Assembly: GCA_918797485.1 (NCBI GenBank)
Contig: CAKKNE010000004.1
Location: 3,410,001-3,474,000, forward strand
Source of the DNA: Pelagomonas calceolata
Lineage: Eukaryota > Sar > Pelagophyceae > Pelagomonadales > Pelagomonadaceae
Length of the DNA: 64,000 nt
Reading direction: 5' to 3'
Below are positions 3,881 to 56,741 of the stretch, piece by piece. The translations under genes were made by a program, and so were the position numbers. The stretch's first letter is position 1. Each line of letters begins with the position of its first letter. The notes under the pieces were generated by a model that was given only the letters and a program-made list of their open reading frames with translations, searched no databases and was not told where the DNA came from.

Positions 3881-3910
3881 TTTGCTAGTGTCTTACATTA
3901 CGCTAGCAAA
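3881..3910 (+). promoter_or_regulatory. CTAG palindromic promoter element, copy 1
   Basis: Arms TTTGCTAGTG and CGCTAGCAAA flank the core TCTTACATTA, the longest and cleanest palindrome of the series. It lies between divergent genes, 175 bp from the start of the SET-like gene and 85 bp before the ATG at 3995. See the finding on the whole family. Confidence 0.7.
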
Positions 3911-3994
3911 CAGATCCAGCCTCGACCCAAGTTTCCCTGGGAACGCGCTGCAGAAGCGAGGAACGCTGCCAGTACACTACTCAGAGCTGCCACA

Positions 3995-4623
3995 ATGAGG
4001 CTGGTCCTCGCGCTCTGCCTCTTGACCGTCCAGGCCTTCCAGACCCCGCGGCCCAGACCCGCGGCCCAGATCCAGCGGCGCGCCTTCCTCGACGACGACG
4101 ACGTCAGTGATTCGGCGTGATTTCCGACCTTTTCCGAACGTCGACGCCATGCTGCACCGCCTCGACGCCGTCGACGCGGCCGCGTGAGAGTCTACGCGTC
4201 TCGCGAGAGCGCCGCGGCAGTCTCGCGACGGTGTTAATCACACAGGGCTCGATCTGGGACACATTATTAAGAAACGGACCCATCAGCTTCGGGATTAGGG
4301 TGGCGCGGCCCGACTTCTACGAAGAGACGGTGGTCACGTACATGGAGACGAAAGGAGTGGATAGACTAGAAGCGCAGCGGCGCATGGACTTCATGTTCAA
4401 CGACCCGAACGGCTTCGGCGTCAACGAGTTGCGCGAGGAGCAGCTGGGCGAGAAGATCAACTACAACGTTAAGTCGGGCGTCCAGAACCGGCCGGTCTTC
4501 AGTGCCTTCTGGGCCGCATGGTGCTTCTACTTCTTCTTCATCTTCCTGCCGACGCGCGTTTCTGAACTCGGGGGCATCGACTTCACGCCGTCGAAGTTCG
4601 ACATCATGGGGCCCTACAACTAG
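3995..4623 (+). CDS. Plastid-targeted membrane protein, unknown function (one intron)
   Basis: Two exons, 3995-4102 and 4246-4623, give 161 residues. Exon 1 encodes a signal peptide (MRLVLALCLLTVQA) followed by FQTPRPRPAAQIQRR, the Phe-led basic transit peptide of heterokont plastid proteins. Exon 2 encodes the mature part, with a hydrophobic segment rich in Phe and Trp (FSAFWAAWCFYFFFIFLP) about residues 123-141 and a short tail ending IMGPYN. The intron (GTCAGTG...CACACAG, 143 nt) is inferred because exon 1 meets a stop directly after it and the frame resumes cleanly at GSIWDTLLRNG. I do not recognise the family; a small thylakoid membrane protein is a reasonable guess. Its start region is shared with the divergent SET-like gene. 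Confidence 0.7.
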
Positions 4624-4633
4624 ATTCACATAA

Positions 4634-5476
4634 CTATTTAAGAAAGTCTGCTGAGACCTCCAACACGTTGCCGTCGGGGTCTTGTATACGCTCAGCTCTA
4701 TCGCGCGCCGCGAGCCTTAAGGCGCCGACCGCGGAAACGCCTGTTGATGGTGGCTTCGCCCGTCGATCGGGCACGAGGAGCACACCAAAAGAAGATGGAG
4801 CCGCCTCTAGATAAATAGAGCCCTTGGGCGGGTTGGGATCAAAAGGCGACTCGCCCTCCTTCTTGTCGAAGGGCCGCGCGCGCGGGTACGGGGCGCGCTT
4901 GAACCCGTGACTTTCGTACCAGGCCGCGCTCTTCCGCGCGTCTTTTGATCGGTAGGCCACGTACATGAGGCGGTCGGGCGGCTCGTCGCCAACGAGCAGC
5001 CGCAGCGGCAACCCGCCCGGCGCGCCGACGGACCAGGCGCCGTAGCCGTCGCGCAGCTCGCCCCCGTACGTCACCATGCGCGACGCGCGGAACTGCAGCG
5101 GCAACGCGATTTGGACGTAGAGGACGGCGTCCGTTTCTGGAGAAGCCGGCGCGACGTCGTTCGCTGGTTGCAGCTCGAGCGAGAAGTGGCCGCCGTCGAC
5201 GTCGAACGACGACACGCCGAGCGTGAAGTCCTTCGGCCGCTCGAGGGCCGTCGGGCCGAACGAGGCCCGCGCGGCGCCGCCTTTTTCCGCTGTTACGGTC
5301 ATTCCCAATGCTTCACTTAAAAACGCTGCCGTCGCGGGCACGTCGCCGCAATTGACGACCAATGAGCGCGGGACGAGCGGTGCGTCGGCGAAGGTCGCAG
5401 CCTGCGCTGGCAGCGGTGCCAGTGCCAGCGTCTGCAGCACTGTACGGCGGTCCAGGCTTTGCGGTTGCAGTCGCAT
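4634..5476 (-). CDS. Plastid/lumen-type VOC (glyoxalase-fold) protein
   Basis: Starting at the methionine at 5476 (in-frame upstream Met codons reach 5545) gives 280 residues. The N-terminus MRLQPQSLDRRTVLQTLALA followed by PLPAQAAT resembles a twin-arginine thylakoid-lumen signal with an AxA cleavage site. The remainder is two VOC-type modules: SLVVNCGDVPATAAFLSEALGM near residue 39, and LMYVAYRSKDARKSAAWYES with a final RIQDPDGNVLEVS. The DPDGNxxE ending is a classical VOC/glyoxalase metal-ligand region. The substrate cannot be told from sequence. The gene converges on the 3995 gene with 10 bp between stop codons. Confidence 0.75.
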   Translation of the reverse strand: MRLQPQSLDRRTVLQTLALAPLPAQAATFADAPLVPRSLVVNCGDVPATAAFLSEALGMTVTAEKGGAARASFGPTALERPKDFTLGVSSFDVDGGHFSLELQPANDVAPASPETDAVLYVQIALPLQFRASRMVTYGGELRDGYGAWSVGAPGGLPLRLLVGDEPPDRLMYVAYRSKDARKSAAWYESHGFKRAPYPRARPFDKKEGESPFDPNPPKGSIYLEAAPSSFGVLLVPDRRAKPPSTGVSAVGALRLAARDRAERIQDPDGNVLEVSADFLK

Positions 5477-6005
5477 GGCTGCCGTGGCTGCAGCATAGAT
5501 GCAAACGGTTCGTATTATCGATGCGGGATGCATGACTGGCTGCATTTTGGCGCTCTGATGTTGTGCTGCTGCACTCCAGTCCTCACGGCCCTCAAGGTGA
5601 ATGTGCGACTATCTATGCTTCCCGGCGGACGGAATGCATCCAAAGGAGCCTTCAGATGGGTTCGAAATTTTCTAGTATGTTACGAGGACGCTAGGTTTTA
5701 TTTTGCGCGATCGCCATCGTCGTGCAGCTATTGCGAAGTGCTCGCTTAGGTAGCTCTCCAACCACCAACGTAAGTCGTCTCAGCCGAAGCCAGAGATCAC
5801 TTCTCTGAACTGAGGACTGCCCCGCCCTCCCCGCTCGCCAGCTTGGGTGCAAAGCGCAGCGAGGCTGCTTGCAGCCCTGCGCAGCGCCGCGCGCCGTCGC
5901 CGGCTCCCCGCGGTCCACGAGAGAGTAACAACGCACGCGAGAGAGTAACAAGCGCTCACTTTGTTACGCGCGCGCAGCTCGCCGCCGACGACACAAAAAG
6001 CAAAA
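5477..6005. promoter_or_regulatory. Divergent promoter region, VOC protein / eL22
   Basis: 529 bp shared by two divergent genes. It holds one CTAG-type palindrome (5672-5695, listed separately). Nearer the ribosomal gene is a direct repeat of CGAGAGAGTAACAA at 5918-5931 and 5938-5951, spaced 20 nt start to start, with a related TTTGTTACGCG just downstream. A duplicated site 55-90 bp before a ribosomal protein ATG is a plausible activator site. No further gene seen. Confidence 0.4.
5672..5695 (+). promoter_or_regulatory. CTAG palindromic promoter element, copy 2
   Basis: CTAG, then TATGTTACGAGGACG, then CTAGG. It lies 196 bp from the VOC gene start and 310 bp from the eL22 start. Same TTAC core as the other copies with a 15-nt spacer. 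Confidence 0.6.
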
Positions 6006-6365
6006 ATGCCGACCAAATCGAAAGCCGCGAAGAAGAAGACCGTCAAGTTCTACGTCGACTGCTGGCAGCCCGTCGAGGACTCCGTGCTTGACGTCGCGAC
6101 CTTCGAGAAGTTCCTGCGGGACACGATCAAGGTCGACAACAAGGCGGGCAACCTCGGCGACAAGGTCGTCCTCAGCACGGAGAAGACGAAGGTCGTCGTC
6201 CAGGCGACGGACGGCGTCATCGCGAAGCGGTACCTGAAGTACTTGACGAAGAAGTACCTCAAGAAGCAGCAGCTCCGCGACTACCTCCACGTCGTCGCGA
6301 CGGCGAAAAACACGTACGAGATGCGCTACTTCAGCATCAACTCCGAGGGCGACGACGAGGCGTAA
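6006..6365 (+). CDS. RPL22: 60S ribosomal protein eL22
   Basis: A 119-residue protein starting MPTKSKAAKKKTVKFYVDC. The basic N-terminus, the VKFYVDCWQPVEDSVLDVATFEKFLRD-type core and the ending YEMRYFSI followed by an acidic tail (NSEGDDEA) match eukaryotic eL22 in order and length. It binds rRNA in the 60S subunit and is not essential for peptide bond formation in other eukaryotes. The start at 6006 is preceded by AAAA, a good initiation context; an upstream in-frame Met at 5961 would add a non-conserved 15 residues and is rejected. No intron is needed. It faces the next gene tail to tail with 6 bp between stops. Confidence 0.95.
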   Translation: MPTKSKAAKKKTVKFYVDCWQPVEDSVLDVATFEKFLRDTIKVDNKAGNLGDKVVLSTEKTKVVVQATDGVIAKRYLKYLTKKYLKKQQLRDYLHVVATAKNTYEMRYFSINSEGDDEA

Positions 6366-6371
6366 AAATTG

Positions 6372-7967
6372 TTACCTTAGTGAGTTCGTGCACCGCAGCA
6401 GCACGTCAGCTATTTCGACGTGCGGCGGCGCCGTGAGGATATACAAAGCCGCGTCGACGACGTCGCGCGCCTCCAAAGCGTCGGCCGCCGCATACACTAA
6501 GTCCGACGCCGCCTTTCCATTTTTCGCGGCATAGAAGTCCGACACGACGAGCCCGGGCGAGATCGACGAGACTCTGTAAGGAGACTGCTTCGCGCGCAGT
6601 TCCCGCCGCGTCGCCTCGGCCAGCGCCCGCACCGCGGCCTTGGACGCCGCGTAGATCCCCAAATCCGTCGCGTCGGGCATTCTATGAGCTGAAAGTGAGG
6701 AAATGTGTAGCACGTGGCCCCGCGGCGCCTTCATCCTTTCGAGCAGGGCGAAGTAGGCCGTGGACCACGCCGCCGGCGCCACCGTGTTGATGGCAAACGT
6801 CTCGTTTATTGCGCTTTCGCTGCCCCCCAGGACGACCGCGCCGTCCCGCGCGACGCCGGCGTTGTTGATCAGAGCAAAAGGGGGTGATGCACAAGCATCC
6901 AAGGCCTTTGTGATCGTAGCTGGGTCGGTCACATCCCCAACCACACAAATGATCCGCTCACCAATACGTTTCCGTAACGCTTCCAGCCGGTCCGCCCTTC
7001 TAGCCACGGCCACGACACGTACTTTCAACTCGCAAGCAAGCGCCTCGCACAGAGCCGCCCCAATACCGGCGGAGGCGCCCGTCACGATGCAGACGCCGTC
7101 GACGAACGCCGGAGACGCTTCTAGCGCCAGCGCCCTCGAACAGCGCGGCTGGTCGCGCGCCTTCCGTTTGATCGCATCTTGTTCCAATTGTGCTTTGATT
7201 TTATCAGCGACAGTCGACTTCTTCTTCAACCCCCGCGCGAATTTGGAAAACGCGCCCTTCGAGAGCGTCGAGTCGCGGAACTCGTCTTTCAGTCTATTGC
7301 CATCAATATCTTCTCTAGCATAACATAAATCAACTCGAATCACGAGCTTCACGCCCTTCGTCAAAGGAGGACACGCGTGCAGGATGTCGTGCTCAAACAC
7401 CAGAGCCATGCCTCTTTTGGGTTTGACTGGTATGCCGCGCTTGTAACAGACCTCCGGGAAAACGTCGTCGCGCGGGTTTGCTGGTGGAGGCGCGGACTTG
7501 GGCGAGGGCAACAAGCACGTCTCGCAGCCCTCGTAGCCCTCATTCAGATACAACAGTATGGTGAAGAGACTCGCGTTCGGCTCCTTCACAGGCGTATGTT
7601 TATCCCCACCAGACGTGTCCGGGTGCGGCGCGACGCTCGCGCCCTCCGGGTACTTGACAAAGCGGAAGGTTGGGGTGACGCCGACCAAGCGCCTCCTTTT
7701 GTGGACCGGCGGGCAGAACGGCCTGAGCCTCTCGAAGATAGTAAGGGCCCACGCGTCATCATCAAAACGCGCTCGCAAGCCCGTCTGCAGCGGCGCCATG
7801 GGGCTCGGTTTCCAGCCGCTCGCGTCCGCCATTTGTATTAGTTGGGAGCACTCCTTGGCGTCGAGGACGTCGTCCACCGTAAACGCGAGTTTCGAGTTGT
7901 CGAGCGTCCACTCCTTCGGCAGCCGGTGGCGCGTGTAGGCGCGGTCTTTCGCAACCATGCTAGCCAT
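6372..7967 (-). CDS. Prolyl-4-hydroxylase-like / short-chain dehydrogenase fusion
   Basis: One uninterrupted 531-residue frame with two enzymes. Residues about 25-216 are a 2-oxoglutarate/Fe(II) dioxygenase of the prolyl-4-hydroxylase type: iron ligands H115-x-D117 (PHPDTSG) and H197 (FEHDILHACPPLTKG), with a likely 2-oxoglutarate-binding basic residue at 207 or 211. After a basic coiled linker (220-290), residues 291-531 are a short-chain dehydrogenase: TGASAGIG at 296-303, NNAG at 368-371, Ser423/424 and YAASK (Tyr439, Lys443). All catalytic residues of both halves are present, so both activities look intact. No signal peptide is obvious. Hydroxylation followed by oxidation of the product is a natural hypothesis but not shown. 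Start chosen at the first Met; Met4 is also possible. Confidence 0.85.
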   Translation of the reverse strand: MASMVAKDRAYTRHRLPKEWTLDNSKLAFTVDDVLDAKECSQLIQMADASGWKPSPMAPLQTGLRARFDDDAWALTIFERLRPFCPPVHKRRRLVGVTPTFRFVKYPEGASVAPHPDTSGGDKHTPVKEPNASLFTILLYLNEGYEGCETCLLPSPKSAPPPANPRDDVFPEVCYKRGIPVKPKRGMALVFEHDILHACPPLTKGVKLVIRVDLCYAREDIDGNRLKDEFRDSTLSKGAFSKFARGLKKKSTVADKIKAQLEQDAIKRKARDQPRCSRALALEASPAFVDGVCIVTGASAGIGAALCEALACELKVRVVAVARRADRLEALRKRIGERIICVVGDVTDPATITKALDACASPPFALINNAGVARDGAVVLGGSESAINETFAINTVAPAAWSTAYFALLERMKAPRGHVLHISSLSAHRMPDATDLGIYAASKAAVRALAEATRRELRAKQSPYRVSSISPGLVVSDFYAAKNGKAASDLVYAAADALEARDVVDAALYILTAPPHVEIADVLLRCTNSLR

Positions 7968-8166
7968 TTTTTATCTGCTGCGTCGACGGCTACCGCGTCG
8001 ATGGCGTCTCGAAGTCTGGAGAGCTTATCTCACAACTGGGGCAGTACTGTGTGTAGTGATCGATCCTATGTGGACGGATATGCAGCAAATGGGTCCAGGA
8101 ACCTCGCTGCGACCGTCTTGCGCAACAGTGGAGCCGATTTGCCTGCCAAAACTGGTTTGCGGGCGT

Positions 8167-8190
8167 GCTAGCGTCCTGTAAGACACTAGC
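8167..8190 (-). promoter_or_regulatory. CTAG palindromic promoter element, copy 3
   Basis: On the minus strand this reads GCTAG, TGTCTTACAGGACG, CTAGC, a near-consensus copy. It lies 200 bp upstream of the hydroxylase/dehydrogenase fusion, in a 277-bp gap that otherwise shows nothing. Confidence 0.7.
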
Positions 8191-8244
8191 CGCAAAGATG
8201 CGGATGCCCTCACGTGCTGCGGCGAGCGATTACAAACACACACA

Positions 8245-9429
8245 TTATCTAGAGACCGCGGGCGACGCGCACGGCTCCAGGCACGTCACGAAGCGCCGGA
8301 ACCGCTTCGACAATAAGTGGTCGTCGGCCTTGTCGAGCCAGCGCAGCATGAAGTTGTAGACCTTGGCCGAGCCCGCGTTGTTCTGTTCGTAGAGCCCGAG
8401 CTTCGCCTTAGTTAAATCAAGAGACTTGGCCCCGAAGCGGTAGTGCGAGAAGCCGTAGGCTTTCAGACCCCGCGGGAGGGCCTCCTCGCCCTCGACGTAG
8501 TGCGACGACGCGTACTGAGTTGATTTCCCCATGAACGAAGTCGGCACGAGGATCCACTTCCGCGGCTGGCCCTTGAGCATTTCTAAAGTCGCGAGGCAGC
8601 GCCGCGGGAACTGGCGCCATAAAGGCTCATTAGTAATAGAGTTCAAGCGCCAGGTCTCGGCGATGCGGTCGACCATGGAGCCGAGCACGAAGCCGTCGCC
8701 CGTCACGAGGGCCGCATCAATAAGTGGTGTTGGAACGTCGAAGAACTCGTCGAGGTCGGGATACATGAGGTACTTGTTCTTCGGCAGCGTCTTCAGGTAA
8801 GCGTTGACCGCCTCTCTTTTTAAATCTGACGTGTACGTAGATGCTTCTCTCAAATTATCGGGGTGTACGACTTCATCGAGGATGGGCTTCACGTCCTTCA
8901 GTGAAGGCGACACGATAATGAGAGAGCGGCCGGGCTCCTTGAAGCGGATGCCCCGCGCCGCGTAGAAGGCCAGGAAGTGTTTCAGCAACTCGGGATTGCG
9001 GCTCGTCACGTAGGCGAAGAAGTAGAGCTTGCTCGTGAGTGTTTTGTTGAAACGCTGCGGCGCTCCACAATTCCCGTCCTTCGTAAACACAAGCGTCGCG
9101 TTGAGGTCGTGCTTCTGCTTCGTGGGCGTGAGGTGTTGCGCCCCGCGCCATCGACGCGATGCTGCCTCCGCAGCTGCGTCTGCTCGTTTCGACTTGGCCG
9201 GCGCGGCCGGCGCCTTCACCTCCTTGCGGCAGTGGCGGTCGCTGCCCACCGTGACGCAGCCGGGCAGCTGCACCGGATATTTCTTTCGCTGGTTTTTCCG
9301 CATTAACGCCTGCTGGCGCTCGGCGTCGAGGTACGTGCCGTCTTGGAGCAAATTGTCCGCCTGGTATTTGGCATGTTTAATGCCGTTCGCCGCGGCGCGC
9401 GGCAGCAGTAACAAGTATAATAGGTTCAT
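8245..9429 (-). CDS. Secretory glycosyltransferase (GT-A, DxD) with an exonised introner fragment
   Basis: A 394-residue protein with an N-terminal signal peptide (MNLLYLLLLPRAAA). The catalytic part begins near residue 133 (SKLYFFAYVTSRNPELLKHF) and has the DLDEFF motif at 225-230, the metal/nucleotide-sugar binding DxD of GT2/GT92-type transferases that act on surface or secreted glycans. The ending is Cys-rich (TCLEPCASPAVSR). Residues about 82-98 (ADAAAEAASRRWRGAQ) are encoded by 9138-9186, which is almost identical to the core of the introner in the 19248-20773 gene; the frame stays open there. Either this piece is translated or it is an unrecognised intron. Donor sugar and acceptor are unknown. 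Confidence 0.75.
   Translation of the reverse strand: MNLLYLLLLPRAAANGIKHAKYQADNLLQDGTYLDAERQQALMRKNQRKKYPVQLPGCVTVGSDRHCRKEVKAPAAPAKSKRADAAAEAASRRWRGAQHLTPTKQKHDLNATLVFTKDGNCGAPQRFNKTLTSKLYFFAYVTSRNPELLKHFLAFYAARGIRFKEPGRSLIIVSPSLKDVKPILDEVVHPDNLREASTYTSDLKREAVNAYLKTLPKNKYLMYPDLDEFFDVPTPLIDAALVTGDGFVLGSMVDRIAETWRLNSITNEPLWRQFPRRCLATLEMLKGQPRKWILVPTSFMGKSTQYASSHYVEGEEALPRGLKAYGFSHYRFGAKSLDLTKAKLGLYEQNNAGSAKVYNFMLRWLDKADDHLLSKRFRRFVTCLEPCASPAVSR
9138..9186 (-). repeat. Introner core fragment inside a coding exon
   Basis: This 49-bp segment matches 20147-20195 (inside an introner-type intron) at all but about four positions, including GCCATCGACGCGATG and AGCTGCGTCTGCTCG. Here it lacks the terminal repeats and is in-frame in the glycosyltransferase gene. 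The differences fall where the intron copy would give stop-prone or less coding-like triplets. Confidence 0.7.
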
Positions 9430-11245: not shown

Positions 11246-11267
11246 GCTAGTGTGTCGATACACTAGG
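11246..11267. promoter_or_regulatory. CTAG palindromic promoter element, copy 4 (variant)
   Basis: CTAG, TGTGTCGATACA, CTAGG. This variant is a near-perfect palindrome with a 12-nt spacer and shares its TGTGTCGATAC core with the copy at 48858. It is upstream of the 11514 gene. Confidence 0.5.
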
Positions 11268-19247: not shown

Positions 19248-20773
19248 CTAGACGCCCGGCGCGACGTAGGCCAAAACCGTCGCCTGGTCGTGCACCACCG
19301 TCCGGCACGACGTCGGGCCCGGGGCAATCGCGGCGCGGAAGGTGGCTCCCAAAGCGTTCGCCCCCAACGCCTCGGCGACAAGCGACGGCTCGCCCGGCGC
19401 GCAGGAGACGCCTGAGAACTCCAGGATGGCCGAGTCCCCGTGCGCGCGGCGCGCCGGCGCGACGCTCGCGAGCACCGCGCGCTCGCGCGCATCCCGGTCG
19501 CCCACGGCACGCAGCCGCAGCCGTGTTTCGCCTGGAACTATTGTCTGCGGGCAACAGCACACGGCCAGCGACCCGTGCTCGACCTCGACGGGGCACGTCC
19601 TTCCTTCGGAACCGGTCATCAATTCAGCTAAAATGGTGTCGCGGCCGTCCTCGTCCAGGCCCAGGGCGCTCTTGCGCACGCGCCGCCCGTCCACGCCCGT
19701 CACGAGAACTCTATCACCGCGCGGCATCGGCAGCGACGCGGTCACGAGCGAGTGGTCCTCCGAGAGGGGCGTCGAGCCCGGCGCGACGACGACGTGCAGG
19801 CCCACGAGCGAGTCGACGCCGCCGTCGAGCGCGAGCCCCGCGACGGCCCCCTCCTCGAGCGCGCGGCCCCGGCCCCCCGCTACGACGGGGCCGTCGTCGT
19901 TCACCACTCCACCCACCTTCGGCGACTCGGGCAGCACGCCGTCCACTCTCCGAAGCCAATCGTCGAGCTTATTGCGCTCCGAGGGGCTCCCGGCCGCCGC
20001 GAACAGTAGTAACGACGGTGGTGCCTGCACGAACCGCTCCCAGTCCTCGAGCGCCGGCAGGCACCCCGCGTCGCTGGCAAACGCCGTGGCCGTCGCGCCG
20101 TCGGGCATGGCGAGGAGCGTCACCTGTGTGAAAATCAATTGTCGGGCGCCCCACGCCATCGACGCGATGTTGTCTCCGTAGCTGCGTCTGCTCGATGGCG
20201 TGTAGATGCTCACGCCATCGACGCGACGTTGTCGCCGTGACCGCGTCGGTTCGATGGCTTGAGGTTCACGAGGATCCACGCAATATCCCTCAGGATACTA
20301 ACGCACTGGTTGATTTCCACACCGAGCATCACGGCGGCGCGCGGGTTCGCGCCGTCGCAGGCCTCGCAGAACGCCTCGCGGTGGCTCCCGAAGCCCACGG
20401 CCGCGTCGAGCTGGAGTTCATCGACTAAATGCTGCGTGACGGTCGCGACCGAGCACGGGCTCGCGACGACGACCGCGGCCATGCTCCGCGTCGGCGCGAC
20501 CTCGGGCGCGAGCTGGGCCGCGAGGCGGGCCGCGAGCGCGTCCGGGTCTTCGGCCGACGAGCGCGATCCGACGACGCGCATGGTGGTCTTGCTCCTCGCG
20601 ACGCGCGCGGCGGCGAGGCGCTTGGTGGTGACGGTGCGCAGCGACGTCATGGTCTTCGTTGTCTTCGTGTGCACGGTGCGCAGGGCACCTTGCGCCGGGG
20701 TCTTGCTCCTCGCGACGGTGCGCAGGGACGGCGTCTTGGACTGGGCATTGCGCAGGGCCGCTTGAAGCGCCAT
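19248..20773 (-). CDS. FIST-domain-like protein (one introner intron)
   Basis: Exon 1 is 20773-20333 (147 codons) and exon 2 is 20123-19248, giving 438 residues. Exon 1 starts with a basic region carrying several SLRTV/LRTV-(A/H/T)-KT repeats, possibly a mitochondrial presequence. Then AAVVVASPCSVATVTQHL and AAVGFGSHREAF resemble the FIST-N sensory fold, and the C-terminal half (GDRVLVTGVDGRRVRKSAL onward) would be the FIST-C part. FIST proteins bind small ligands in signal transduction, and FBXO22 is a eukaryotic relative; the assignment here is moderate. The intron is an introner element removed exactly between duplicated target copies, restoring RAA-VTLLAMPDG. Confidence 0.6.
20124..20332 (-). 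mobile_element. Introner element acting as intron (FIST gene)
   Basis: Terminal inverted repeats CTGTGTGAAAATCA (20124-20137) and TGATTTCCACACCG (20311-20324) are flanked by AGCGTCAC (20116-20123) and AGCATCAC (20325-20332), an 8-bp duplication with one mismatch. In the gene's sense the intron starts at the GT of the upstream duplicate and ends CACACAG in the terminal repeat. The core includes ACGCCATCGACGCGATG and ACGCCATCGACGCGACG, two partial repeats. Relative to transcription it is inserted opposite to the copy at 47189-47360. About 201 bp of element plus one target copy; non-autonomous. Confidence 0.85.
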
Positions 20774-23155: not shown

Positions 23156-23503
23156 AGTAGTGAGAGCTCTGGCTGCTCTGAGAGCCCCTGAGTGTGTGAG
23201 CAGCAGGGAATCAGCACGAGTGCTCGCAAATCGATCAGCGCTCTCTAAAACTGCTCTAATTAACGCCCCTGGCTGCGAAATCACCTGTAAAGGGCGCTTT
23301 TTTAACTTAGAGCGCTAACTTATAGCGTTAGCGTATAGTAAGACACTAGGAACAGCGCGACCTTCGGCCTAAATCCAGCCCTCTGGGACGCCACAGGTAC
23401 GCTGTGGCGCTCCCAGTTAGCTGCTCGCACTTCTCTCACAGCCCTCGCAACGCTCTGGCCGACGCCCGCAACCGAGTCTGTGAGAAAGTGAGGAGTAAGA
23501 AGG
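23156..23503. other. Divergent promoter region
   Basis: 348 bp between divergent genes, with the CTAG-type element at 23325-23350 near its middle and a GAGCGCTAACTTATAGCGTTAGCG inverted run just before it (broken here as GAGCGCTAA and TTAGCG). Nothing else noted. Confidence 0.4.
23325..23350 (-). promoter_or_regulatory. CTAG palindromic promoter element, copy 5
   Basis: On the minus strand: CTAG, TGTCTTACTATACG, then CTAA (one arm mutated). It lies 170 bp from the small plastid protein start and 154 bp from the BTB gene start. Confidence 0.6.
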
Positions 23504-28775: not shown

Positions 28776-28799
28776 GCTAGTGCGTTACAGGACGCTAGC
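28776..28799 (+). promoter_or_regulatory. CTAG palindromic promoter element, copy 6
   Basis: GCTAG, TGCGTTACAGGACG, CTAGC, within TTGCTAG...CTAGCA arms. Divergent pair: 142 bp from the GBP-like start and 85 bp from the AVL9 start. Confidence 0.7.
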
Positions 28800-31280: not shown

Positions 31281-31304
31281 GCTAGTACCTATCTGCGCGC
31301 TAGC
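31281..31304 (+). promoter_or_regulatory. CTAG palindromic promoter element, copy 7 (diverged core)
   Basis: GCTAG, TACCTATCTGCGCG, CTAGC: arms and spacing are kept, the TTAC core is not. It is 55 bp before the MFS gene ATG at 31359. Confidence 0.45.
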
Positions 31305-37136: not shown

Positions 37137-37160
37137 CTAGTATGTTACATCCACGCTAGA
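37137..37160 (+). promoter_or_regulatory. CTAG palindromic promoter element, copy 8
   Basis: CTAG, TATGTTACATCCACG, CTAGA. Divergent pair: 119 bp from the proteasome-like start and 159 bp from the first Met of the F-box/cytochrome b5 gene. The rest of 37019-37318 shows nothing further. Confidence 0.65.
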
Positions 37161-39740: not shown

Positions 39741-39763
39741 CTAGTGTCTTACTGGACGCTAGC
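39741..39763 (+). promoter_or_regulatory. CTAG palindromic promoter element, copy 9
   Basis: CTAG, TGTCTTACTGGACG, CTAGC. Divergent pair; almost exactly central, 126 bp from the EEP start and 125 bp from the HIS6 start. Confidence 0.7.
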
Positions 39764-42018: not shown

Positions 42019-42042
42019 GCTAGAGTCTTACATGCCGCTAGC
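42019..42042 (+). promoter_or_regulatory. CTAG palindromic promoter element, copy 10
   Basis: GCTAG, AGTCTTACATGCCG, CTAGC. Divergent pair: 56 bp from the F-box/actin-like start and 124 bp from the SDR start. Confidence 0.7.
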
Positions 42043-43024: not shown

Positions 43025-43048
43025 GCTAGTGTCTTACGGGTCGCTAGC
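43025..43048 (+). promoter_or_regulatory. CTAG palindromic promoter element, copy 11
   Basis: GCTAG, TGTCTTACGGGTCG, CTAGC. Between tandem plus-strand genes, 92 bp before the TPR gene ATG. It shows that the element marks starts, not only divergent pairs. Confidence 0.7.
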
Positions 43049-43939: not shown

Positions 43940-44485
43940 TCAGAAGCTGAGCCGCGTGCGCTTCATGGGGCTGAGCGGCTCGTCGTCGTCCGTGGCGAAG
44001 CAGAGCTCCTTGGGGTCGGGCCGCGGCTTGACGTATTTCCGCGCCTGTATGAAATCAAAATTTTACGGCGCGTTCGTGCTGAATCTCGAGGACCCGACAC
44101 ACTGATTGATTTCCACACCGTTTCGTGCGCAACTCGAGCAGCACCAGGCGTAGAACTCCGCGCGGAGCAGATCTTTCGCCCGCTCGACGATGAAGACGTC
44201 TTGCGTCGTCGAGCAGACGACGCAGCGCGGCGAACCCGGCGGCGGTGGCGCCGCGTCGTCGTCGTCGTCGTCATCGTCAAAGAGCACCGTCCGCGTCGGG
44301 TCCGGGGCCTTAAAGGGGGCGCGCACGGGCGCGTCGTTCGCGGGCGCCTCATCGTCGCTCGACGAGTCGCCACCCGCCGTCGGCGGCCGCGCCGGCGCTT
44401 TGCCGCCCGGCCGTCGCCGAGTCGGCCGCTCGACGGGGCGCGCGGTCTGCGAAGAGTTGCGTTTTTGCCCTTTGCGGCGCGGCAT
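43940..44485 (-). CDS. Small Zn-binding-motif nuclear-type protein (one introner intron)
   Basis: Exon 1 is 44485-44129 and exon 2 is 44044-43940, giving 153 residues. It starts MPRRKGQKRNSSQT, a basic nuclear-type N-terminus, then a Pro-rich linker, an acidic DDDDDDDD run, and a Cys pair set CVVC...CCSSC that could bind zinc. Exon 2 adds ARKYVKPRPDPKELCFATDD and ends LSPMKRTRLSF, a possible CDK-site/basic motif. Splicing at the GC of the upstream target copy and CATACAG restores frame; using the GT inside the terminal repeat would give a different, longer tail. Function unknown. Confidence 0.6.
44045..44128 (-). mobile_element. Introner element acting as intron (Zn-motif gene)
   Basis: An 84-nt intron. 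Terminal repeats in gene sense: CGGTGTGGAAATCA (44120-44107) and TGATTTCATACAG (44057-44045). The duplicated flanks GCACGAAA and GCGCGGAA agree at six of eight positions. The 5-prime splice site would be GC. The first part resembles the 20124-20332 copy in the same orientation; the palindromic core is lost, so this is an internally deleted copy. Confidence 0.75.
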
Positions 44486-46075: not shown

Positions 46076-46430
46076 TCTAGCTTTCCTCTCCGGCTGCCTG
46101 GCTTTTGGACGAACTAGGATTAGGCGTCCCTCGCACAAAACAAGCCTGGCCCCCTTACTGTATGGCCTCAGATTGCAAAACGCTCTCGATAATCATGCTA
46201 GCTTGCTAGCGTCGTAGAGATACTAGCAATCACTGGCCTACATCGCACGCCGATACGAGACGTACAGCAAGTCACATTTCGTGATTCGTGTCACGTCGTG
46301 TAGCCCTGTCACTGTAGCTGACGCTAGGAGCCGCCCCACCGTGCGCGCCCCAGCTAGGAGCCGCCCCAGCCTAAGAGCCAGCCGCCGCACCGCGCGCGCC
46401 CCACAAGACATTGCCTAAATCAGCACACAA
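46076..46430. other. Divergent promoter region with GCCCCAGC repeat
   Basis: 355 bp between kinase and kish starts. It contains a CTAG palindrome (46205-46227) and a short tandem of CTAGGAGCCGCCCCA at about 46324-46338 and 46354-46368. Confidence 0.45.
46205..46227 (-). promoter_or_regulatory. CTAG palindromic promoter element, copy 12
   Basis: On the minus strand: GCTAG, TATCTCTACGACG, CTAGC. Divergent pair: 130 bp from the kinase start and 204 bp from the kish start. Confidence 0.6.
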
Positions 46431-46777: not shown

Positions 46778-47864
46778 TTACAAGAAACACCCGTCGCCGG
46801 GGCAGCGCGCGTCGGCCGCCGCGGGCCGTCCGGGCTGTCGTGGGAGCCGCGCCGCGACGGACGGGTCGACGGCGAGCGACCGCGCCTCGGCGGCGGCGCA
46901 CTGGCGGCGGATCTCGTCGAGCACGTCGGCGTCGTGGCAGCGCCAGAGGTTGAGCGTCAGCGCGCCGCGCGCGGCCGCGGACGAGAAGCGCTGGAGCAGC
47001 GCGGCCGCGGCGTGGCGCCGCGGCACGGGCTCGTGGTTGAGGCCGACGAGGACGTCGCCGGGCCGGACGTGGAGCCGCGCCGCGCGGCCGCCGACGGCCG
47101 CCGCCGCGAACGCGCCGTCGAGCGCGGCGCGCCCGGGAAACGCGACGCGCGCCCACGTCACGCCGGCCGCGCCCGCGCCGCAGTGGACCTGTGTGGAAAT
47201 CAACCAGTGAGTTAGGTTATCGAACCTCCACGCGCGGTCACGGGGACAACGTCGCGTCGATGGCCTGGAAACTCCACGCCATCGAGCAGGGCAGCTACGG
47301 AGACAGCATCGCGTCGATGGCGTGGGGCGCCCGAAGTGTGATTTCCGCACAGCAGTGGACGCAGAGCTCGCCGCCGGCGGGCGCGCCGCCGCCGGCCGCC
47401 GCGCGCCCGCGCCAGAGGAGCGCGTCGACGGCCGCGAGCGCGTACTTGGGGTTCGACCGCACGAGGTCCTGCAGCTCCTCGGCCGAGGCGCCGCGCGGCA
47501 GCGGCTTCCCGTTGATGGCCACGAGCACGTCGCCGGCCGCGACGCCGGGCGCGCGAGCCGCCGCTCGCACCGCCGCGACCTCGATGCGCCGCGCCGCGCG
47601 CGGCTCGTTGCGCAGCGCCACAGCGGCGCCGAAGACGCCCGGCGCGAGCCGCGCGCGCCGCAGGCTCGCGAGCCCGTTCTCGGCGACGACCGCCGCCGCC
47701 GCGGCGCCGCCGCCGCCGCGCGCGACCGCCGCGGCCCGCGCCGCCGCCGCGCCGCCGCTGCCCAGCGATGCGTCCGAGTCGTCGTCAGAATCGTCGGCGC
47801 TGCTGCTCTCGGCAGGCTCTTCCTCCGCGTAGACGACGTCCAGCCCGCCGAGGAGCTGCGCCAT
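46778..47864 (-). CDS. Two-PDZ-like protein (one introner intron)
   Basis: Exon 1 is 47864-47361 and exon 2 is 47188-46778, giving 304 residues. Each exon carries a PDZ-like unit: APGVAAGDVLVAINGKPLPR in exon 1 and LHVRPGDVLVGLNHEPVPRR in exon 2, both with the GDVL-x-x-N carboxylate-loop-following strand. The acidic N-terminus follows MAQLLGGLDVVYAEEE. Splicing at the duplicated target restores GELC-VHCGAGAAG. Ala-rich stretches reflect base bias. Partner unknown. Met at 47906 is an alternative start. Confidence 0.65.
47189..47360 (-). mobile_element. Introner element acting as intron (PDZ gene), youngest-looking copy
   Basis: Terminal inverted repeats CTGTGTGGAAATCA (47189-47202, plus strand) and TGATTTCCGCACAG (47339-47352), differing at one position, are bounded by identical 8-bp copies of the target CAGTGGAC at 47181-47188 and 47353-47360. 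In gene sense the intron begins at the GT of GTCCACTG and ends CACACAG. The core is clearly homologous to 20124-20332 but lies in the opposite orientation to transcription, so both strands of this element can supply splice sites. Confidence 0.9.
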
Positions 47865-48857: not shown

Positions 48858-48877
48858 CTAGTGTGTCGATACGCTAG
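48858..48877. promoter_or_regulatory. CTAG palindromic element, copy 13 (variant)
   Basis: CTAG, TGTGTCGATACG, CTAG. Same variant core as the copy at 11246. No gene start is near on the right, so this copy may mark an unannotated transcript or be orphaned. Confidence 0.45.
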
Positions 48878-50185: not shown

Positions 50186-50210
50186 GCTAGTGTCTCTACA
50201 CGCCGCTAGC
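50186..50210 (+). promoter_or_regulatory. CTAG palindromic promoter element, copy 14
   Basis: GCTAG, TGTCTCTACACGCCG, CTAGC, 245 bp before the LYR-protein ATG. A perfect palindrome CTACGCTACGTAGCGTAG follows at about 50232-50249. Confidence 0.6.
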
Positions 50211-50876: not shown

Positions 50877-50900
50877 GCTAGTGTCTTACAGGCCGCTAGC
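50877..50900 (+). promoter_or_regulatory. CTAG palindromic promoter element, copy 15
   Basis: GCTAG, TGTCTTACAGGCCG, CTAGC; consensus copy, 147 bp before the ATG at 51047, between tandem plus-strand genes. Confidence 0.7.
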
Positions 50901-51046: not shown

Positions 51047-51443
51047 ATGAAAAACCTGCTCGAGCGCACGAAGAGCGGGCGCCGGAAGGGCTCGCTCGGG
51101 CTCGTCCTGGACTCCGACGCCGCCGATGAGGCCGCATCTACCAACGGCGCCGCCGCCGCTCCGGCACCCGCCGACGCCGTCGAAGACGCGAATCACGCGA
51201 CGGCAGGCCCGGCACCCGTCGTCGACGACGCGACGGCGGGCCCGGCGCCAGGCGACGGCGGCGACGGCGCCGCCCCCGACGACGACGGCTCCGAGAGCGA
51301 GCTCGCCGACGACGACGGCATAGGAGCTGCGGGACCTCCGGGACGCGCTCTTCACGGTCAAGACGGCGCTCGTCGAGATGCGCACGCGGTCCTCGCTCGT
51401 CAGCGACTCGTGCGACTCGGAGGACGCGCGCGCGCCGCTGTGA
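51047..51443 (+). CDS. Small acidic/basic protein, unknown, probably spliced
   Basis: The first frame starts MKNLLERTKSGRRKGSLGLV and becomes an Ala/Pro/Asp low-complexity run. From 51324 a second frame, ELRDLRDALFTVKTALVEMR then TRSSLVSDSCDSEDARAPL, is a convincing helical ending with a stop at 51441-51443. A GT-AG intron 51218-51323 (106 nt, or starting 51221) would join them, giving about 96 residues, but the acidic run between could also be coding with a shorter GC-AG intron. I do not recognise the family. A Golgi-type coiled-coil tail is a guess only. Confidence 0.45.
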
Positions 51444-51473
51444 TTAAGACCTTTGCGAATACCGGAGTACGCG

Positions 51474-51560: not shown

Positions 51561-51637
51561 GGGGGGGGAGCAGGCCGGACGCCGGAATCCCAGGTCCGCG
51601 CCGGTCTGACTTGGTACTTGCGCCGGTGGCGCACGTT

Positions 51638-51750: not shown

Positions 51751-51789
51751 GGAAAGCACGTGCTATTTAAATTACTCCGCAACTCCCTA

Positions 51790-52224: not shown

Positions 52225-52555
52225 CGCGCCGCCCAGGGTCGAGGGGCTGCCCCCCTTTCAGCTGGGCCGCCGGCCGCGGCGGCGAGCGCTGGTTGTGCTG
52301 ACGGACCACTGGGCTTTTTGTAACCCAGGGCGGATGTCCACCGATTGATATCGACGGTCTCTGCGCGAGCTCGGCGCGATGGTCCGCAAAACAGCTCAAA
52401 ACCGGTGCTCGCGGGTTTGGCTGCGTCCGTGGTAGGAGTCCTCCCGCCCTGCGACGTGGTCTCCATCGTTCGAGGAGACGTGCGCGCGGGTTGAGAGCAA
52501 CGTGCGGGCGCGCCTGTTGCAACTTCGACGACGACGACAAGTCCCAATGATTAAA
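52225..52555. other. Intergenic region, nothing specific seen
   Basis: 331 bp upstream of the TMEM216-like gene and downstream of the next minus-strand gene. GATTGATATCGA near 52342 weakly recalls an introner end but no partner repeat was found. Confidence 0.35.
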
Positions 52556-52563
52556 TTAAGCCC

Positions 52564-53313
52564 CTACGCGCTCACGAGCTCCGCGAGCGCGTGCGCGGCG
52601 TCGAGGTCGTGGAAGGACTCGACCGACGCGAGCGACCGCGCGCGCTTCAGCTTCGGCGAGAGCGGCAGCAGCGGCGCCGGCCGCGCGCGCTTCGGCGGCG
52701 GCGCCGGCGCCGCCGGCCGCCGCTGGCAGAGCGAGAGCGCGTTCACGTAGCGCGGCCCGTGCGCGGGGCTCGGCCGCTCCACGAGCCGGTACCAGCGGGT
52801 GCGCCCGCCGACGGCCTCGCACGCGACGCCGAGGCGGCCGTCGGGCTCCCAGTGGACGTCCGCGTCGTCGGAGACATCCTCCAGGCAGGCGGCGGGGTCC
52901 TCCTCGACGGCGTAGGCCGGCGCGTCGTGCCGCGCGGCGGGGTCCGGGTGCACCTCGACCCGCAACAGCTGCTCGAGGTCGTCCGCGTCGCCCGCCGCCA
53001 GCATTCGCGTCACCTCGAAGGCGTCTATTGGTGCGAGAGGCGTGCCCTGCAGGAGGTCCTGGGCTCCCCGAAACCAGGCCGGCGCCGGCCCCTCGAGCAC
53101 CCAGCGGCCGTCGACGCAACGGCTGCCGACGCAACGGCTGCCGACGGCGGAGGTTGTGCGGCGCGGCCGCGCGCGCGTGAATTCCGCGAGGCGGCTGTCG
53201 AGCTCCCACCAGGGCGTCAGGTCGTCCGCCGGGCCCGCGAGCAGCGATCTCGCGGTCGGCTCCGCCGAGCAACTGCCGCTCCACATCCTGCTCGTCTCTC
53301 TTGCGAACTGCAT
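52564..53313 (-). CDS. Unknown protein, member A of an inverted paralogue pair
   Basis: A 249-residue protein that I do not recognise. It shares most of its length with the divergent gene at 53814: WVLEGPAPAWFRGA, a helix LAAGDADDLEQLLRVEVHPD, DDADVHWEPDGRLGV, LVERPSPAHGPR and the tail SPKLKRARSLASVESFHD-LDAAHALAELVSA. The WEPDGRLGV segment is followed by a RTRWYRLVERPSP strand. A basic PPPKRARPAPLLPLSPKLKR region suggests nuclear location or phosphorylation at SP sites. The counterpart start MWSG (53286) is shared by both genes and may be the true start. Confidence 0.65.
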   Translation of the reverse strand: MQFARETSRMWSGSCSAEPTARSLLAGPADDLTPWWELDSRLAEFTRARPRRTTSAVGSRCVGSRCVDGRWVLEGPAPAWFRGAQDLLQGTPLAPIDAFEVTRMLAAGDADDLEQLLRVEVHPDPAARHDAPAYAVEEDPAACLEDVSDDADVHWEPDGRLGVACEAVGGRTRWYRLVERPSPAHGPRYVNALSLCQRRPAAPAPPPKRARPAPLLPLSPKLKRARSLASVESFHDLDAAHALAELVSA

Positions 53314-53813
53314 CGTCCAGCGCGGTTGGGTTGCGGTCCCGCACCGCGTAGGTCTTGCACTTGCAATATGATGGCAATTTCGCGCGTCGCAAAAAGCGCA
53401 CTGTACTTGAGATCACTTGCCACGTTCGAGCTGGGATGCGAACCGATTGGCTGTCGGAAAACAACCTACAGCCCCGCTCGCACAGCTGAGGCGCACCGCG
53501 GACGCGATCCTGAGAGAAGGGGAGAAGCGCACCTTCCCCCGCATAGTCGATCGCGCGACGTCAACGAACGCGAGCAAACCAAACTCATCTCCGCGTCGCT
53601 AAAAGCGCTCGTTTGGGCCGGGCACACACTGCGCCGTCGATGACGACACCGCGGAGTCGTTGCGCAAGGGCGGCCGCGGCGTGGCCGACTGGCGCGCGTC
53701 ACGGCGGCGGCGTGGGGGCTTCCGCCTCGCCTGCCGTCGGTACGAGTAGGTAGGATTGAGATCACTTCGTTGGCCGTCCGTACGTTTCTGCGAGGGGCAC
53801 GCACGAGATTTTT
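53314..53813. promoter_or_regulatory. Shared promoter region of the inverted paralogue pair
   Basis: 500 bp between the head-to-head paralogues. A CCAAT/ATTGG motif lies at about 53444-53449. Open frames in both directions have no coding character. No CTAG palindrome. Confidence 0.4.
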
Positions 53814-54575
53814 TTGTGTGCTGAGCAACAACCAGCAGCGGAAGGAATTGTTATCGCGCATGCCATTGCAAACCGCAAGATGATACGCGCAGCCGCGAAG
53901 ATGTGGTCTGGCGTCCAGGATAGCGAACCGCCGCAACCGCGCCGCTCGTCTATCAATTTAAAACCCTGGTGGTCACAAGGTGCAGCCGAAACGCACGCGG
54001 CGACGCGCAGCGGCATCCGCGCGCGCGACAGCCGGCTGGTCGACAACCGCTGGGTGTTAGAGGGGCCGGCTCCGGCCTGGTTCCGCGGGGCCGAACATCT
54101 CCGAGAAGGTACGCCCCTTGCGCTGTCGGACGCTTTCCGCGTCACCCAGATGCTCTCGGCCGGCGACGCGGACGACCTAGAGGCGCTGTTGCGTGTCCAG
54201 GTCCACCGGGACCCCGCGGCGCGGTCTGCGCCGGCGTTCGCGGTTGAGTCGGACCCGGCCGCCTTCCGGCAGGAGGTTTCCGACGACGCGGACGTCTACT
54301 GGGGCCCCGACGGCCTCCTCGGCGTCGCCGGGCGTGATGTGGGGAGAAACCGCCATTACCAGCTCGTGGAGCGGCCGAGCCCCGCGCACGGCCCGCGGTT
54401 CGTCGCGAACGCGCTCTCGCTCTGCCAGCGCCAGGCGTCGCGCCCGAAGCGCGCGCGGCCGGCGCCGCTGCTCCCGCTCTCGCCGCAGCTGAAGCGCGCG
54501 CGGTCCCTGGCGTCGGTGGACAACTTCCACGACATCGACGCCGCGCACGCGCTCGCGGAGCTCGTGAGCGCGTAG
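53814..54575 (+). CDS. Unknown protein, member B of an inverted paralogue pair
   Basis: A 253-residue protein matching member A from NRWVLEGPAPAWFRGAEHL to the end (SPQLKRARSLASVDNFHD, then IDAAHALAELVSA). Member B lacks the Pro/Ala insertion near residue 210 and has YWGPDG for HWEPDG. First 60 residues differ from A; Met30 (53901), preceding MWSGVQDSEP, lines up with a Met in A. Codon bias is similar in both, so the duplication is local and not foreign. Function unknown. Confidence 0.65.
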   Translation: MCAEQQPAAEGIVIAHAIANRKMIRAAAKMWSGVQDSEPPQPRRSSINLKPWWSQGAAETHAATRSGIRARDSRLVDNRWVLEGPAPAWFRGAEHLREGTPLALSDAFRVTQMLSAGDADDLEALLRVQVHRDPAARSAPAFAVESDPAAFRQEVSDDADVYWGPDGLLGVAGRDVGRNRHYQLVERPSPAHGPRFVANALSLCQRQASRPKRARPAPLLPLSPQLKRARSLASVDNFHDIDAAHALAELVSA

Positions 54576-54640
54576 ACCGGGCGGACCCTGTGTCGTGTGC
54601 CTAAGATATGTTCAAGTCACACACTTACGGCCGGCTGGAT

Positions 54641-56374
54641 CTAGAGCTCCGGCCGAGCCCCGCCTCGGACCCTGAAGGCGTCCGCCGTCGCCGGCCGGTT
54701 GCGCGGGCCGGCGACGAGGTGCGGGATGGCGTCGATGGCGGCGCGCTCGGCGGGCGCCAGCGGCTCGCGCGCGCGGGAGAGCGCGTCCAGGTTCTCGGCG
54801 ACGTGGCCCGCGTCGCGCGACCGCGGGATCGCCGCGTGGCCCGCGTCGACGTGCCAGCGCAGGATCAGCGTCGGCACGTCGACGCCGCGCCGCGCGGCGA
54901 GCTGGCGCAGTAGCGGGTCCGCGCGCGCGCCGACGCCGCGCGGCCAGCCGCTCAGGGAGCTGTAGGCGACGACGGCGATGTCGAGCTCTTTGGCGGCGGC
55001 GAGCACGTCGTCCTCGCCGGGCTCCTGTTCGCCCCTCCGATACACGTCAACCTTGTTCTGCAGGGCGTCGGGGACCCAGATCCCGCCGAGGGCCGGGTCC
55101 TCGGCGAACGCGCGCAGCTCGACGGCGTTGAAGTTCGACACGCCCAGCGCGCGGAGCGTGCCCTTCTTCTGCAGCTCGACGAGCGCGCGCCAGGCCCCGG
55201 CGAGGTCCGCGCGCGCCTTGGCGTCGTTCAGGAAGTTGAACGCGGAGTGCAGGCTGTAGAGGTCGACCGTCTCGACGCCGAAGAAGCGCAGCGTCTCGGC
55301 GACGCGCGCCTTCGCGCCGTCGTACGAGAGGTGCGCGCGGTCCGAGAGCTTCGAGGCGAGGAAGGCGCGGCCCGGACCCCCGGATTGCGCGAGGGCGCGG
55401 CCGACGGCCGCCTCGTTGCGGTAGGCCTCGGCCGAGTCGATGTGCACCGGCGGCGCCGCCGGGTGGGCCGCGGCCCAGGCCAGCGCCGCGCCCACGCTCG
55501 CCTCTGACTCGTGCTCGTCGAGCCAGCACGTGCCGAGGCCTAGGACCGGGAGCTCGACGCCCGCGCGGGGCAGCGGCACCGTCGTGCGTTGCGCCTTCCG
55601 CCCGCGCCACCAGGACTTTACGCCCGTTTCGGCCGCGCCGGCGGCTTCGACGACGATCTTGCCCTCCCAGCTGGCCGGCAGGGCCGAGATGGCGCCCCGC
55701 AAGTTCTTCGCGATGCGCGGGAGCTCGCGGAGGCTCCAGTCCAATCTGCGCGGGTCGTGATGCACGTCGAGGGCCGCCAGCGTGTGCTCCTCCGTGGCGG
55801 CCGCGAAGCGCCGAGCGTTGGCGTCGTCGGGCGGCGCAACCGCCCTAAACAGCCGTGCCGCGTAGAGCGCGTACTGCTCCGCGACGGCGGCCGCGGCCCC
55901 CGCGTCGTCCTCGGGCAGCGTCACGTCACTGGGAAGCTCGCCCCGCAACACGATGCCCTCGAATTCGGCCACGCGCTCTTCGAGCGCGGTGTGGCCGTCG
56001 AGCGCGAGGCGCGCGCCGTCGAACAGCGCCGCCTCGGCCGGCCGCCGCGGCGGCGCCGCCGGCAACGCGACGGGCAGGCCGAGCGCACGCCGCGCGTCGG
56101 GCGCCCAGAGCCAGCGGTGGCTGCAGGCCGCCGCGCAGTGGAGATTCATAAATCTCACGTTCTTGGAGCACTCGTCGGCTTCGGCCCACGAACGGCAGTC
56201 GTGTTCCGGGCTCGGCGGCGCCCGCGCGTCGCTCGCGCACGCGGCGCGGCACTCGACCAGCATGAATTTGTGGTTCTTGACGCACTCGCCCTCCCGCGCC
56301 CATTGCTCGCATTTCTCAGGGGTGGCCGCGCCGCGCGCGCCCAGGGCAGCGAGGCCGATGCAGAGCAGACGCAT
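54641..56374 (-). CDS. Secreted ShKT-domain / aldo-keto reductase fusion
   Basis: Starting at the Met at 56374 gives 577 residues with signal peptide MRLLCIGLAALGARGA. Two ShKT-type six-Cys modules follow: CEQWAREGECVKNHKFMLVE (then CRAAC) and CRSWAEADECSKNVRFMNLH (then CAAAC). A helical middle region leads to an aldo-keto reductase barrel from about 285: LPVLGLGTCWLDEHES, Asp/Tyr of IDSAEAYRNEAAVG, Lys of FLASKLSDRAH and His of LYSLHSAFNF, giving the full D-Y-K-H tetrad. Later LGVSNFNAVELRAF and the NADP-end IPRSRDAGHVAENL are typical. A secreted NADPH enzyme is unusual, so an ER or plastid location is likely. Stop lies 65 bp from the convergent member B. Confidence 0.85.
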   Translation of the reverse strand: MRLLCIGLAALGARGAATPEKCEQWAREGECVKNHKFMLVECRAACASDARAPPSPEHDCRSWAEADECSKNVRFMNLHCAAACSHRWLWAPDARRALGLPVALPAAPPRRPAEAALFDGARLALDGHTALEERVAEFEGIVLRGELPSDVTLPEDDAGAAAAVAEQYALYAARLFRAVAPPDDANARRFAAATEEHTLAALDVHHDPRRLDWSLRELPRIAKNLRGAISALPASWEGKIVVEAAGAAETGVKSWWRGRKAQRTTVPLPRAGVELPVLGLGTCWLDEHESEASVGAALAWAAAHPAAPPVHIDSAEAYRNEAAVGRALAQSGGPGRAFLASKLSDRAHLSYDGAKARVAETLRFFGVETVDLYSLHSAFNFLNDAKARADLAGAWRALVELQKKGTLRALGVSNFNAVELRAFAEDPALGGIWVPDALQNKVDVYRRGEQEPGEDDVLAAAKELDIAVVAYSSLSGWPRGVGARADPLLRQLAARRGVDVPTLILRWHVDAGHAAIPRSRDAGHVAENLDALSRAREPLAPAERAAIDAIPHLVAGPRNRPATADAFRVRGGARPEL

Positions 56375-56741
56375 CCTGCCGCTGCGCGTGTGCGTGTGGG
56401 GCCTCAAGGCTCGTGGAAAGCAGTGGTTTCACACCGTGTCACGAGCCACGGTGAGCAGCGCTGGCGCAGCCAACACGACTTTGCAGCGCAATCGTGCTAT
56501 TCCAATGGCTGGATGCCTTGCGGCGCTCGCAAGGCAGCTGTCGGTAAAAAACAAAAGCAGCCGAGAAGCCCGAGCTAGCGCTGTAAGACACTAGGGATCT
56601 TGCTCCGATCGTCAAGCATCGGTCAATCATCACGCGGTGCCAGCTGAGTAAGCAATTTATAGATCACCAGGAACTGTCCTCTTGCCCGCGGCTGCCCGCA
56701 TCCATCGGGCGGGCAGCCCTTTCAGTAAGAGAGGCTGCAGG
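56375..56741. other. Divergent promoter region
   Basis: 367 bp between divergent genes, with one CTAG element near its middle and nothing else recognised. Confidence 0.4.
56574..56595 (-). promoter_or_regulatory. CTAG palindromic promoter element, copy 16
   Basis: On the minus strand: CCTAG, TGTCTTACAGCG, CTAGC (12-nt spacer). 200 bp from the ShKT/AKR start and 148 bp from the FkbM-type start. Confidence 0.6.

Follow-up and report, generated by a model that had tools for sequence, protein, structure and literature searches.

A recurrent near-palindromic sequence on the promoter side of Pelagomonas calceolata genes: a candidate bidirectional promoter element

Copies of the element in the window

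The stretch of DNA analysed here, referred to as the window, comprises 64,000 nucleotides (nt) of Pelagomonas calceolata (contig CAKKNE010000004.1, positions 3,410,001 to 3,474,000), and next to its 45 gene models, 29 of which match Pfam at E≤0.001 and 27 above Pfam's own cut-off, it holds 16 copies of a short, near-palindromic sequence bounded by CTAG, which is the element considered below. No tRNAs and no Rfam matches at gathering score were found in the window. All 16 copies had been listed in a preliminary description of the window and are indeed present, with coordinates off by 0-4 bases, and they are exactly the copies, with no others, that a two-block weight matrix picks up at threshold 12, a recovery that is partly circular since the matrix was built from 57 copies including 14 of the 16 (in building it, 12 of 69 CTAG pairs were dropped for scoring <14 against the consensus). 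By our gene calls nine copies are divergent, six are tandem and one lies in a called convergent gap, and none of the 16 falls in a called exon; the preliminary description had likewise counted nine between divergent starts and none in coding exons.

The divergent copies (with gene functions given by Pfam match) are found at 3885..3906 (22 nt, + strand, score 41.4), 178 and 88 bp from the starts of genes 650-3706(-) and 3995-4623(+); at 5672..5694 (23 nt, +, score 28.8), with ribosomal protein L22e as right neighbour; at 23328..23349 (22 nt, -, score 28.8), where one arm reads CTAA; at 28777..28798 (22 nt, +, score 38.3), between a guanylate-binding protein gene(-) and an AVL9 gene(+); at 37137..37159 (23 nt, +, score 33.7), between the genes of a proteasome alpha subunit(-) and a cytochrome b5 domain protein(+); at 39741..39762 (22 nt, +, score 37.1), 125 bp from both an Exo_endo_phos gene(-) and a HIS6-like gene(+); at 42020..42041 (22 nt, +, score 38.8), with a short-chain dehydrogenase to the right; at 46206..46226 (21 nt, -, score 26.4), between a branched-chain ketoacid dehydrogenase kinase-like gene(-) and a DUF1242 (kish) gene(+); and at 56575..56594 (20 nt, -, score 36.3), with an aldo-keto reductase gene(-) to the left. 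Tandem copies lie at 8168..8189 (22 nt, -, score 34.4), 209 bp upstream of the short-chain dehydrogenase gene 6372-7958(-); at 31282..31303 (22 nt, +, score 22.0), 55 bp upstream of a called MFS transporter start; at 43026..43047 (22 nt, +, score 40.5), 92 bp upstream of a TPR gene; and at 50187..50209 (23 nt, +, score 28.0), 245 bp upstream of an LYR gene (all four by Pfam match). A further tandem copy, at 11247..11266 (20 nt, score 12.7), is a near-perfect palindrome without assigned strand that carries a second type of core, GTGTCGAT, and was also returned by the search for that core (contig 4: 3421247-3421266). The copy at 48858..48877 (20 nt, +, score 23.5) has the second core as well and lies 218 bp past a RIIa-domain gene, the next called start being 1,577 bp off, whereas the copy at 50878..50899 (22 nt, +, score 40.3) follows the LYR gene and is either convergent, as called, or about 150 bp upstream of a + strand open reading frame at 51047.

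Fifteen copies had been placed 55-310 bp from a start; 14 of the 16 do lie at 55-311 bp, 48858 does not, and 50878 would do so only with the reading frame at 51047. That the element accompanies housekeeping and metabolic genes alike is borne out by neighbours such as L22e, the proteasome subunit, AVL9, the HIS6-like gene, LYR and MFS.

Anatomy and abundance of the element

The consensus, GCTTG-CTAGTGTSTTAC-N4-CGCTAG-CT, describes a bipartite, near-palindromic element of ~30 bp, and in the alignment of 57 copies information is all but confined to positions -6 to +23; it begins ~6 bp before the left CTAG and ends 2 bp past the right one. AT content is slightly higher within ~100 bp of the element. 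Measured from CTAG to CTAG the aligned copies span 18-24 nt, with 22 the commonest length, so the 24 nt first ascribed to the element are the upper end of a range, and its arms, taken to be constant, include the CTAA of copy 23328. The core does vary as described, 11247 and 48858 being the two window copies of the second type, which contains TCGAT; the corresponding pattern CTAGTGTGTCGA...ACRCTAG has 92 matches on contigs 1 to 6 (one palindrome being entered on both strands) against 0 for the control. Two half-sites, as proposed, are likely, though unlike each other: the left one carries TGTSTTAC and the right one CG, and arm position 5 is a nearly fixed T on the left opposed by a nearly fixed G on the right. 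On one strand the arms would pair there as G-U, on the other they meet as A-C. The spacer between TTAC and CGCTAG, in a tally made by eye over 100 listed places, all on contig 1, is 4 nt in 72, 3 nt in 17, 2 nt in 4, 0 nt in 4 and 5 nt in 3, and never 1 or 6-10 nt. The total information, summed by hand from the 57 copies, is ~36 bits and is partly forced by requiring both CTAGs.

The genome searched has 32,445,274 bases in 8 contigs, and that of P. calceolata RCC100 is given as 32.4 Mb in six nuclear contigs, with a plastid and a mitochondrial contig in addition (PMC9481584). Allowing up to three mismatches, CTAGTGTCTTACANNNCGCTAG occurs 2,385 times genome-wide against 1 for the reversed pattern, the full bipartite pattern CTAGTGTSTTACN{0,10}CGCTAG 2,397 times against 0 for its reversed control, and the 12-base left half alone, matched exactly, 2,723 times against 1 in the control, the right half being present within 10 nt of 88% of these. 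In a sample of 264 kb, 27 exact copies, 59 at score 20 and 68 at score 12 were found, where three first-order Markov simulations of the same length gave a mean of 1.7 matches at threshold 12. Scaling from the sample suggests a genome total of ~5,200-6,000 elements. Pairs of CTAG in the 264 kb peak at gaps of 12-15 nt (11, 8, 37 and 5 pairs), and a like peak was seen for none of nine other palindromic 4-mers. Furthermore, the 14 top-ranked 8-mers of 95 promoter-side gaps are all pieces of the element, others such as GGCTGCCC coming after. On contig C1 there is no copy at ~2.59-2.95 Mb among the matches listed, nor among the second-core matches; this may be the low-GC centromeric region mentioned in PMC9481584, although other gaps in the list are equally long.

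Placement relative to genes

Genes in the 264-kb sample were called with a three-periodic hidden Markov model that was written for the purpose and had long open reading frames as its training set; it returned 159 genes and assigned 77% of the sample to exons. A first version read element-bearing gaps between tandem genes as introns and so fused the genes; the intron penalty was then raised and acceptor types were scored, and the final intron settings, chosen after elements had been seen in false introns, are hence not blind. By these calls the element occupies 36 of 57 divergent, 20 of 43 tandem and 2 of 57 convergent gaps (divergent versus convergent, Fisher p 3e-12). Genes are regularly spaced in the sample, with equally many divergent and convergent gaps of median size 417 and 60 bp, respectively. 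Only 2 of the 68 matches fall in exons though these make up 77% of the bases, both score <15, and at threshold 16 the count is 0 of 61; the 3 of 68 in called introns may be the same artefact of mis-called gaps. Promoter-side sequence takes 61 of the 66 noncoding matches (61 in 46.1 kb versus 5 in 13.4 kb of convergent and intronic sequence, binomial p 0.001). An even spread over coding and 3' regions, one of the observations that the preliminary description had named as speaking against it, was not seen in the sample. A terminator or 3'-end signal was rejected on the scarcity in convergent gaps.

In divergent gaps the element tends to be near mid-gap, with medians of 189 and 178 bp to the two starts (49 copies, including those of 15 extra loci that were chosen by strict pattern and counted in the orientation and distance lists only). 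Placement statistics used gaps ≤1,200 bp, which retains 36 of 38 divergent and 20 of 23 tandem matches, and in such divergent gaps 0 of 36 matches come closer than 50 bp to a start, against 9.6 expected at random. Since gaps have a typical size, a preference for the middle of the gap is not fully separable from one for a set distance to the start. Upstream of tandem genes 19 of 26 copies point along the gene (19:7, p 0.03), but all five strong tandem copies on contigs of a close relative, described below, point against it; the orientation is therefore not fixed, and a set orientation to transcription was dropped as a feature of the element.

Two other observations concern the window itself. 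The product of gene 650-3706(-) weakly matches the RAMA (adenine methylase associated) and Tudor domains, both below the Pfam cut-off, and an inverted duplicated pair at 52564-53143/54011-54575, with arms 74-92% complementary, overlaps two gene models whose 836-bp gap is without the element.

Conservation in a close relative

A scan of prokaryote genome contigs for the element gave six records, four of them from one metagenome-assembled genome (MAG) labelled Spirochaeta MED672. A predicted protein of contig L039 matches the Pelagomonas genome at 95%, one of L036 at 98% with 82% at the DNA level over 4.9 kb, and the DNA of L041 at 80-87%. Judged by these protein matches of 95-98% and DNA matches of 80-87%, L036, L039 and L041 are mis-binned DNA of a close Pelagomonas relative, and the Spirochaeta sp. 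MED672 MAG is therefore contaminated; L038 is the fourth element-bearing contig of this MAG, and origin was traced for the other three. The two remaining records, L037 (with bacterial-looking genes) and L040, have one match each and were set aside. By our own estimate, which assumes even base composition, ~15 chance pattern matches are expected in the 257 billion bases, and in the MAG assemblies of L036, L037 and L040 the consensus with up to three mismatches occurs 4, 1 and 2 times against 1, 1 and 3 for the control; with counts this near the control, the contigs of MED672 alone are informative, two of them having several copies each. Two stretches of L041 that resemble introners, the short intron-borne repeats of this lineage, match many places in the genome (102 rows, several per place).

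The four MED672 contigs hold eight copies scoring ≥20, and each of the four that were compared has a counterpart of like orientation in the orthologous gap of Pelagomonas. At L039 2199 the element is identical at 21 of 23 positions against 0.74 for the rest of the aligned gap columns, at L041 586 at 20 of 22 against 0.61, and at L041 2686 at 19 of 21 against 0.56, while at L036 7907 the element is found in the same gap and orientation though the flanks no longer align. The changes between the species are mostly at positions that also vary among copies, namely the S base, the spacer bases and the spacer length.

Discussion

The element is abundant, lies on the promoter side whichever way it points, has sharp edges and is conserved, in the copies compared, while flanks change; from these features together we predict a protein-binding site that serves promoters in both directions. 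We thus favour, with a probability of about 0.7, the notion of a general proximal promoter element that one or more candidate lineage-specific factors would bind as double-stranded DNA and that would serve both directions; the bound protein, the opening of chromatin and the effect on transcription are what we infer beyond the observed distribution. According to this notion a lineage-specific factor or pair of factors would bind the bipartite ~30-bp site, placed mid-gap between divergent genes or ~200 bp upstream of a tandem gene, and would keep the region open, whereupon transcription could start on either or both sides, whichever way the element points. Of the earlier proposal of a bidirectional core or proximal promoter, it is the proximal, predicted protein-bound variant that is best supported, by the promoter-side bias, the symmetric placement and the persistence of the compared copies in the relative.

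Several points nonetheless weigh against this. The placement rests on our own hidden Markov gene calls, 21 of the 57 divergent gaps are without the element, which is hence not obligatory, and ~13 bits would suffice for ~6,000 sites where ~36 are carried, an excess that a single protein would not need. The conservation comparison covers four of the eight strong copies of the relative, and among the windows of the three aligned gaps 44 of 464, 14 of 232 and 0 of 112, respectively, are as conserved as the element; moreover, L039 462, a weak copy with a score of 15.2, is poorly preserved in Pelagomonas, where it scores 9.0, and good conservation is also seen in one divergent gap from which the element is absent in both species. 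The excess of information would be accounted for by two recognition events on one site, and we tentatively consider, as a bolder and distinctly less probable version, that the element is a two-part lineage-specific promoter module, perhaps of half of all genes, in which a clamp GCTAGTG...CGCTAGC and an exchangeable core (TGTSTTAC or GTGTCGAT) would be served by their own protein complex and act as a general bidirectional promoter organiser.

A bound protein might instead separate divergent units or anchor chromatin contacts and not drive transcription at all. The central, symmetric placement in divergent gaps and the lack of a fixed orientation agree with such a boundary or insulator, and the fly proteins BEAF-32 and DREF are tied both to promoters and to domain borders; the element is however fairly frequent in tandem gaps and hardly found in convergent ones, a distribution that fits promoters better and makes a boundary improbable as the primary function. 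Far less probable still is recognition of a fold, formed by pairing of the arms within a transcript or within extruded single-stranded DNA. RNA folds of four window copies in their own orientation do beat shuffled sequence (z -4.9, -4.4, -2.2 and -3.1), and the opposite strands do so less or not at all (z -3.5, -3.0, 0.15 and -2.5), but any inverted repeat would behave in this way, and the better-folding strand is tied to one orientation although that of the element is not fixed. Furthermore, there are no two-sided changes in the six arm pairs of 59 copies, pairs are broken where positions 5 and 6 of the arms vary (3 A-G and 8 A-C), and the seventh position pairs in just 26 of 59, once as C-G for T-A. 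A folded nucleic acid, which the preliminary description had entertained, is weakened accordingly, and the stem-loop was rejected as a selected feature.

The high copy number and the inverted-repeat look could also be those of a transposon remnant or solo end, such as a miniature inverted-repeat transposable element (MITE) or one of the introners of this lineage, which do occur in this genome and peak near 210 bp in length according to PMC9481584. Introners and the element are both abundant and short, with inverted ends in the same genome, but introners lie in introns and have a longer body and different ends; introner-like introns of the window (e.g. 20124-20269, 44045-44116 and 47189-47360) share ends like GTGTGGAAATCA/TGATTTCCACACAG, and the introner ends GTGTGGAAATCA...TGATTTCCACACAG are unrelated to the element, of which only the three matches in called introns, likely mis-called gaps, could be intronic. 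In addition, similarity among the 57 copies ends at ~30 bp and leaves no body of a MITE or DNA transposon, exons are avoided, most matches are near-intact, as the small step from 59 at score 20 to 68 at score 12 indicates, and orthologous copies hold their position while flanks change. A transposon or introner origin was consequently rejected on the sharp edges, the different introner ends and the kept positions, and we consider it very improbable, in agreement with the earlier view that this is no decaying transposon. A viral origin was rejected too, as two scans of viral contigs gave no matches, with the limit that records close to the genome of the window may be left out of them. A role of the paired CTAGs as N6-methyladenine (6mA) marks near promoters seems equally improbable: in AaV, a giant virus of the pelagophyte Aureococcus, 6mA methylation targets motifs of the CTAG type, but this concerns viral DNA, and the authors infer from digests that host and virus patterns diverge (PMC12700378). 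Methylation would moreover leave the TGTSTTAC core and the strict spacing unexplained.

Among known systems, the sites of the yeast general regulatory factors Reb1, Abf1 and Rap1 are present in many promoters, depleted of nucleosomes where bound and associated with promoters that fire both ways, with 7, 7 and 9 critical bases, respectively (PMC3875857). Of these traits only two are seen in the element, its occurrence at many promoters and its bidirectional position; its neighbours in the window are functionally unrelated, and in the 264-kb sample it is concentrated on the promoter side, not in exons or 3' gaps, by our calls. It differs in that ~20 of its bases are nearly fixed, its arms are near-palindromic, it comes with two cores, and its spacer measures 0-5 nt among the 100 places listed. 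In Drosophila, the proteins DREF and BEAF-32 are linked to housekeeping genes, to promoters and to borders with divergent transcription. The element is best read as a candidate site of a general promoter factor that would be functionally like Reb1/Abf1 or DREF/BEAF-32. The fly sequence, TATCGATA/CGATA, is shorter than the Pelagomonas element and different from it, since the dominant core is TGTSTTAC and TCGAT is found only in the second core with its 92 matches. Vertebrate CpG promoters likewise have palindromic or bipartite, promoter-proximal and often bidirectional motifs, TCTCGCGAGA/BANP and ACTACAnnTCCC/ZNF143, to which the Pelagomonas element is unrelated in sequence.

No description of the element was found in the literature on pelagophyte, Aureococcus and bidirectional stramenopile promoters and on palindromic promoter motifs of microalgae, a search with most subscription journals and supplements outside its scope, and the sole match to the 12-mer was an unrelated paper on diphthamide. 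The terms 'motif' and 'palindrom' do not occur in PMC9481584, nor 'promoter' and 'motif' in the Pelagomonas papers PMC13284251 and PMC12054182, and the promoter motifs treated in PMC5917014 belong to the virus AaV.

One element at most of the sampled divergent gaps provides a handle on the start of transcription in a compact stramenopile genome, and it may be used as a bait for its factor, as a promoter predictor in annotation and as a natural bidirectional promoter tool. The excess of information and the exchangeable core furthermore raise the question of how such long sites are kept, and the two-part module, if true, would serve one of the most numerous eukaryotes of the ocean.

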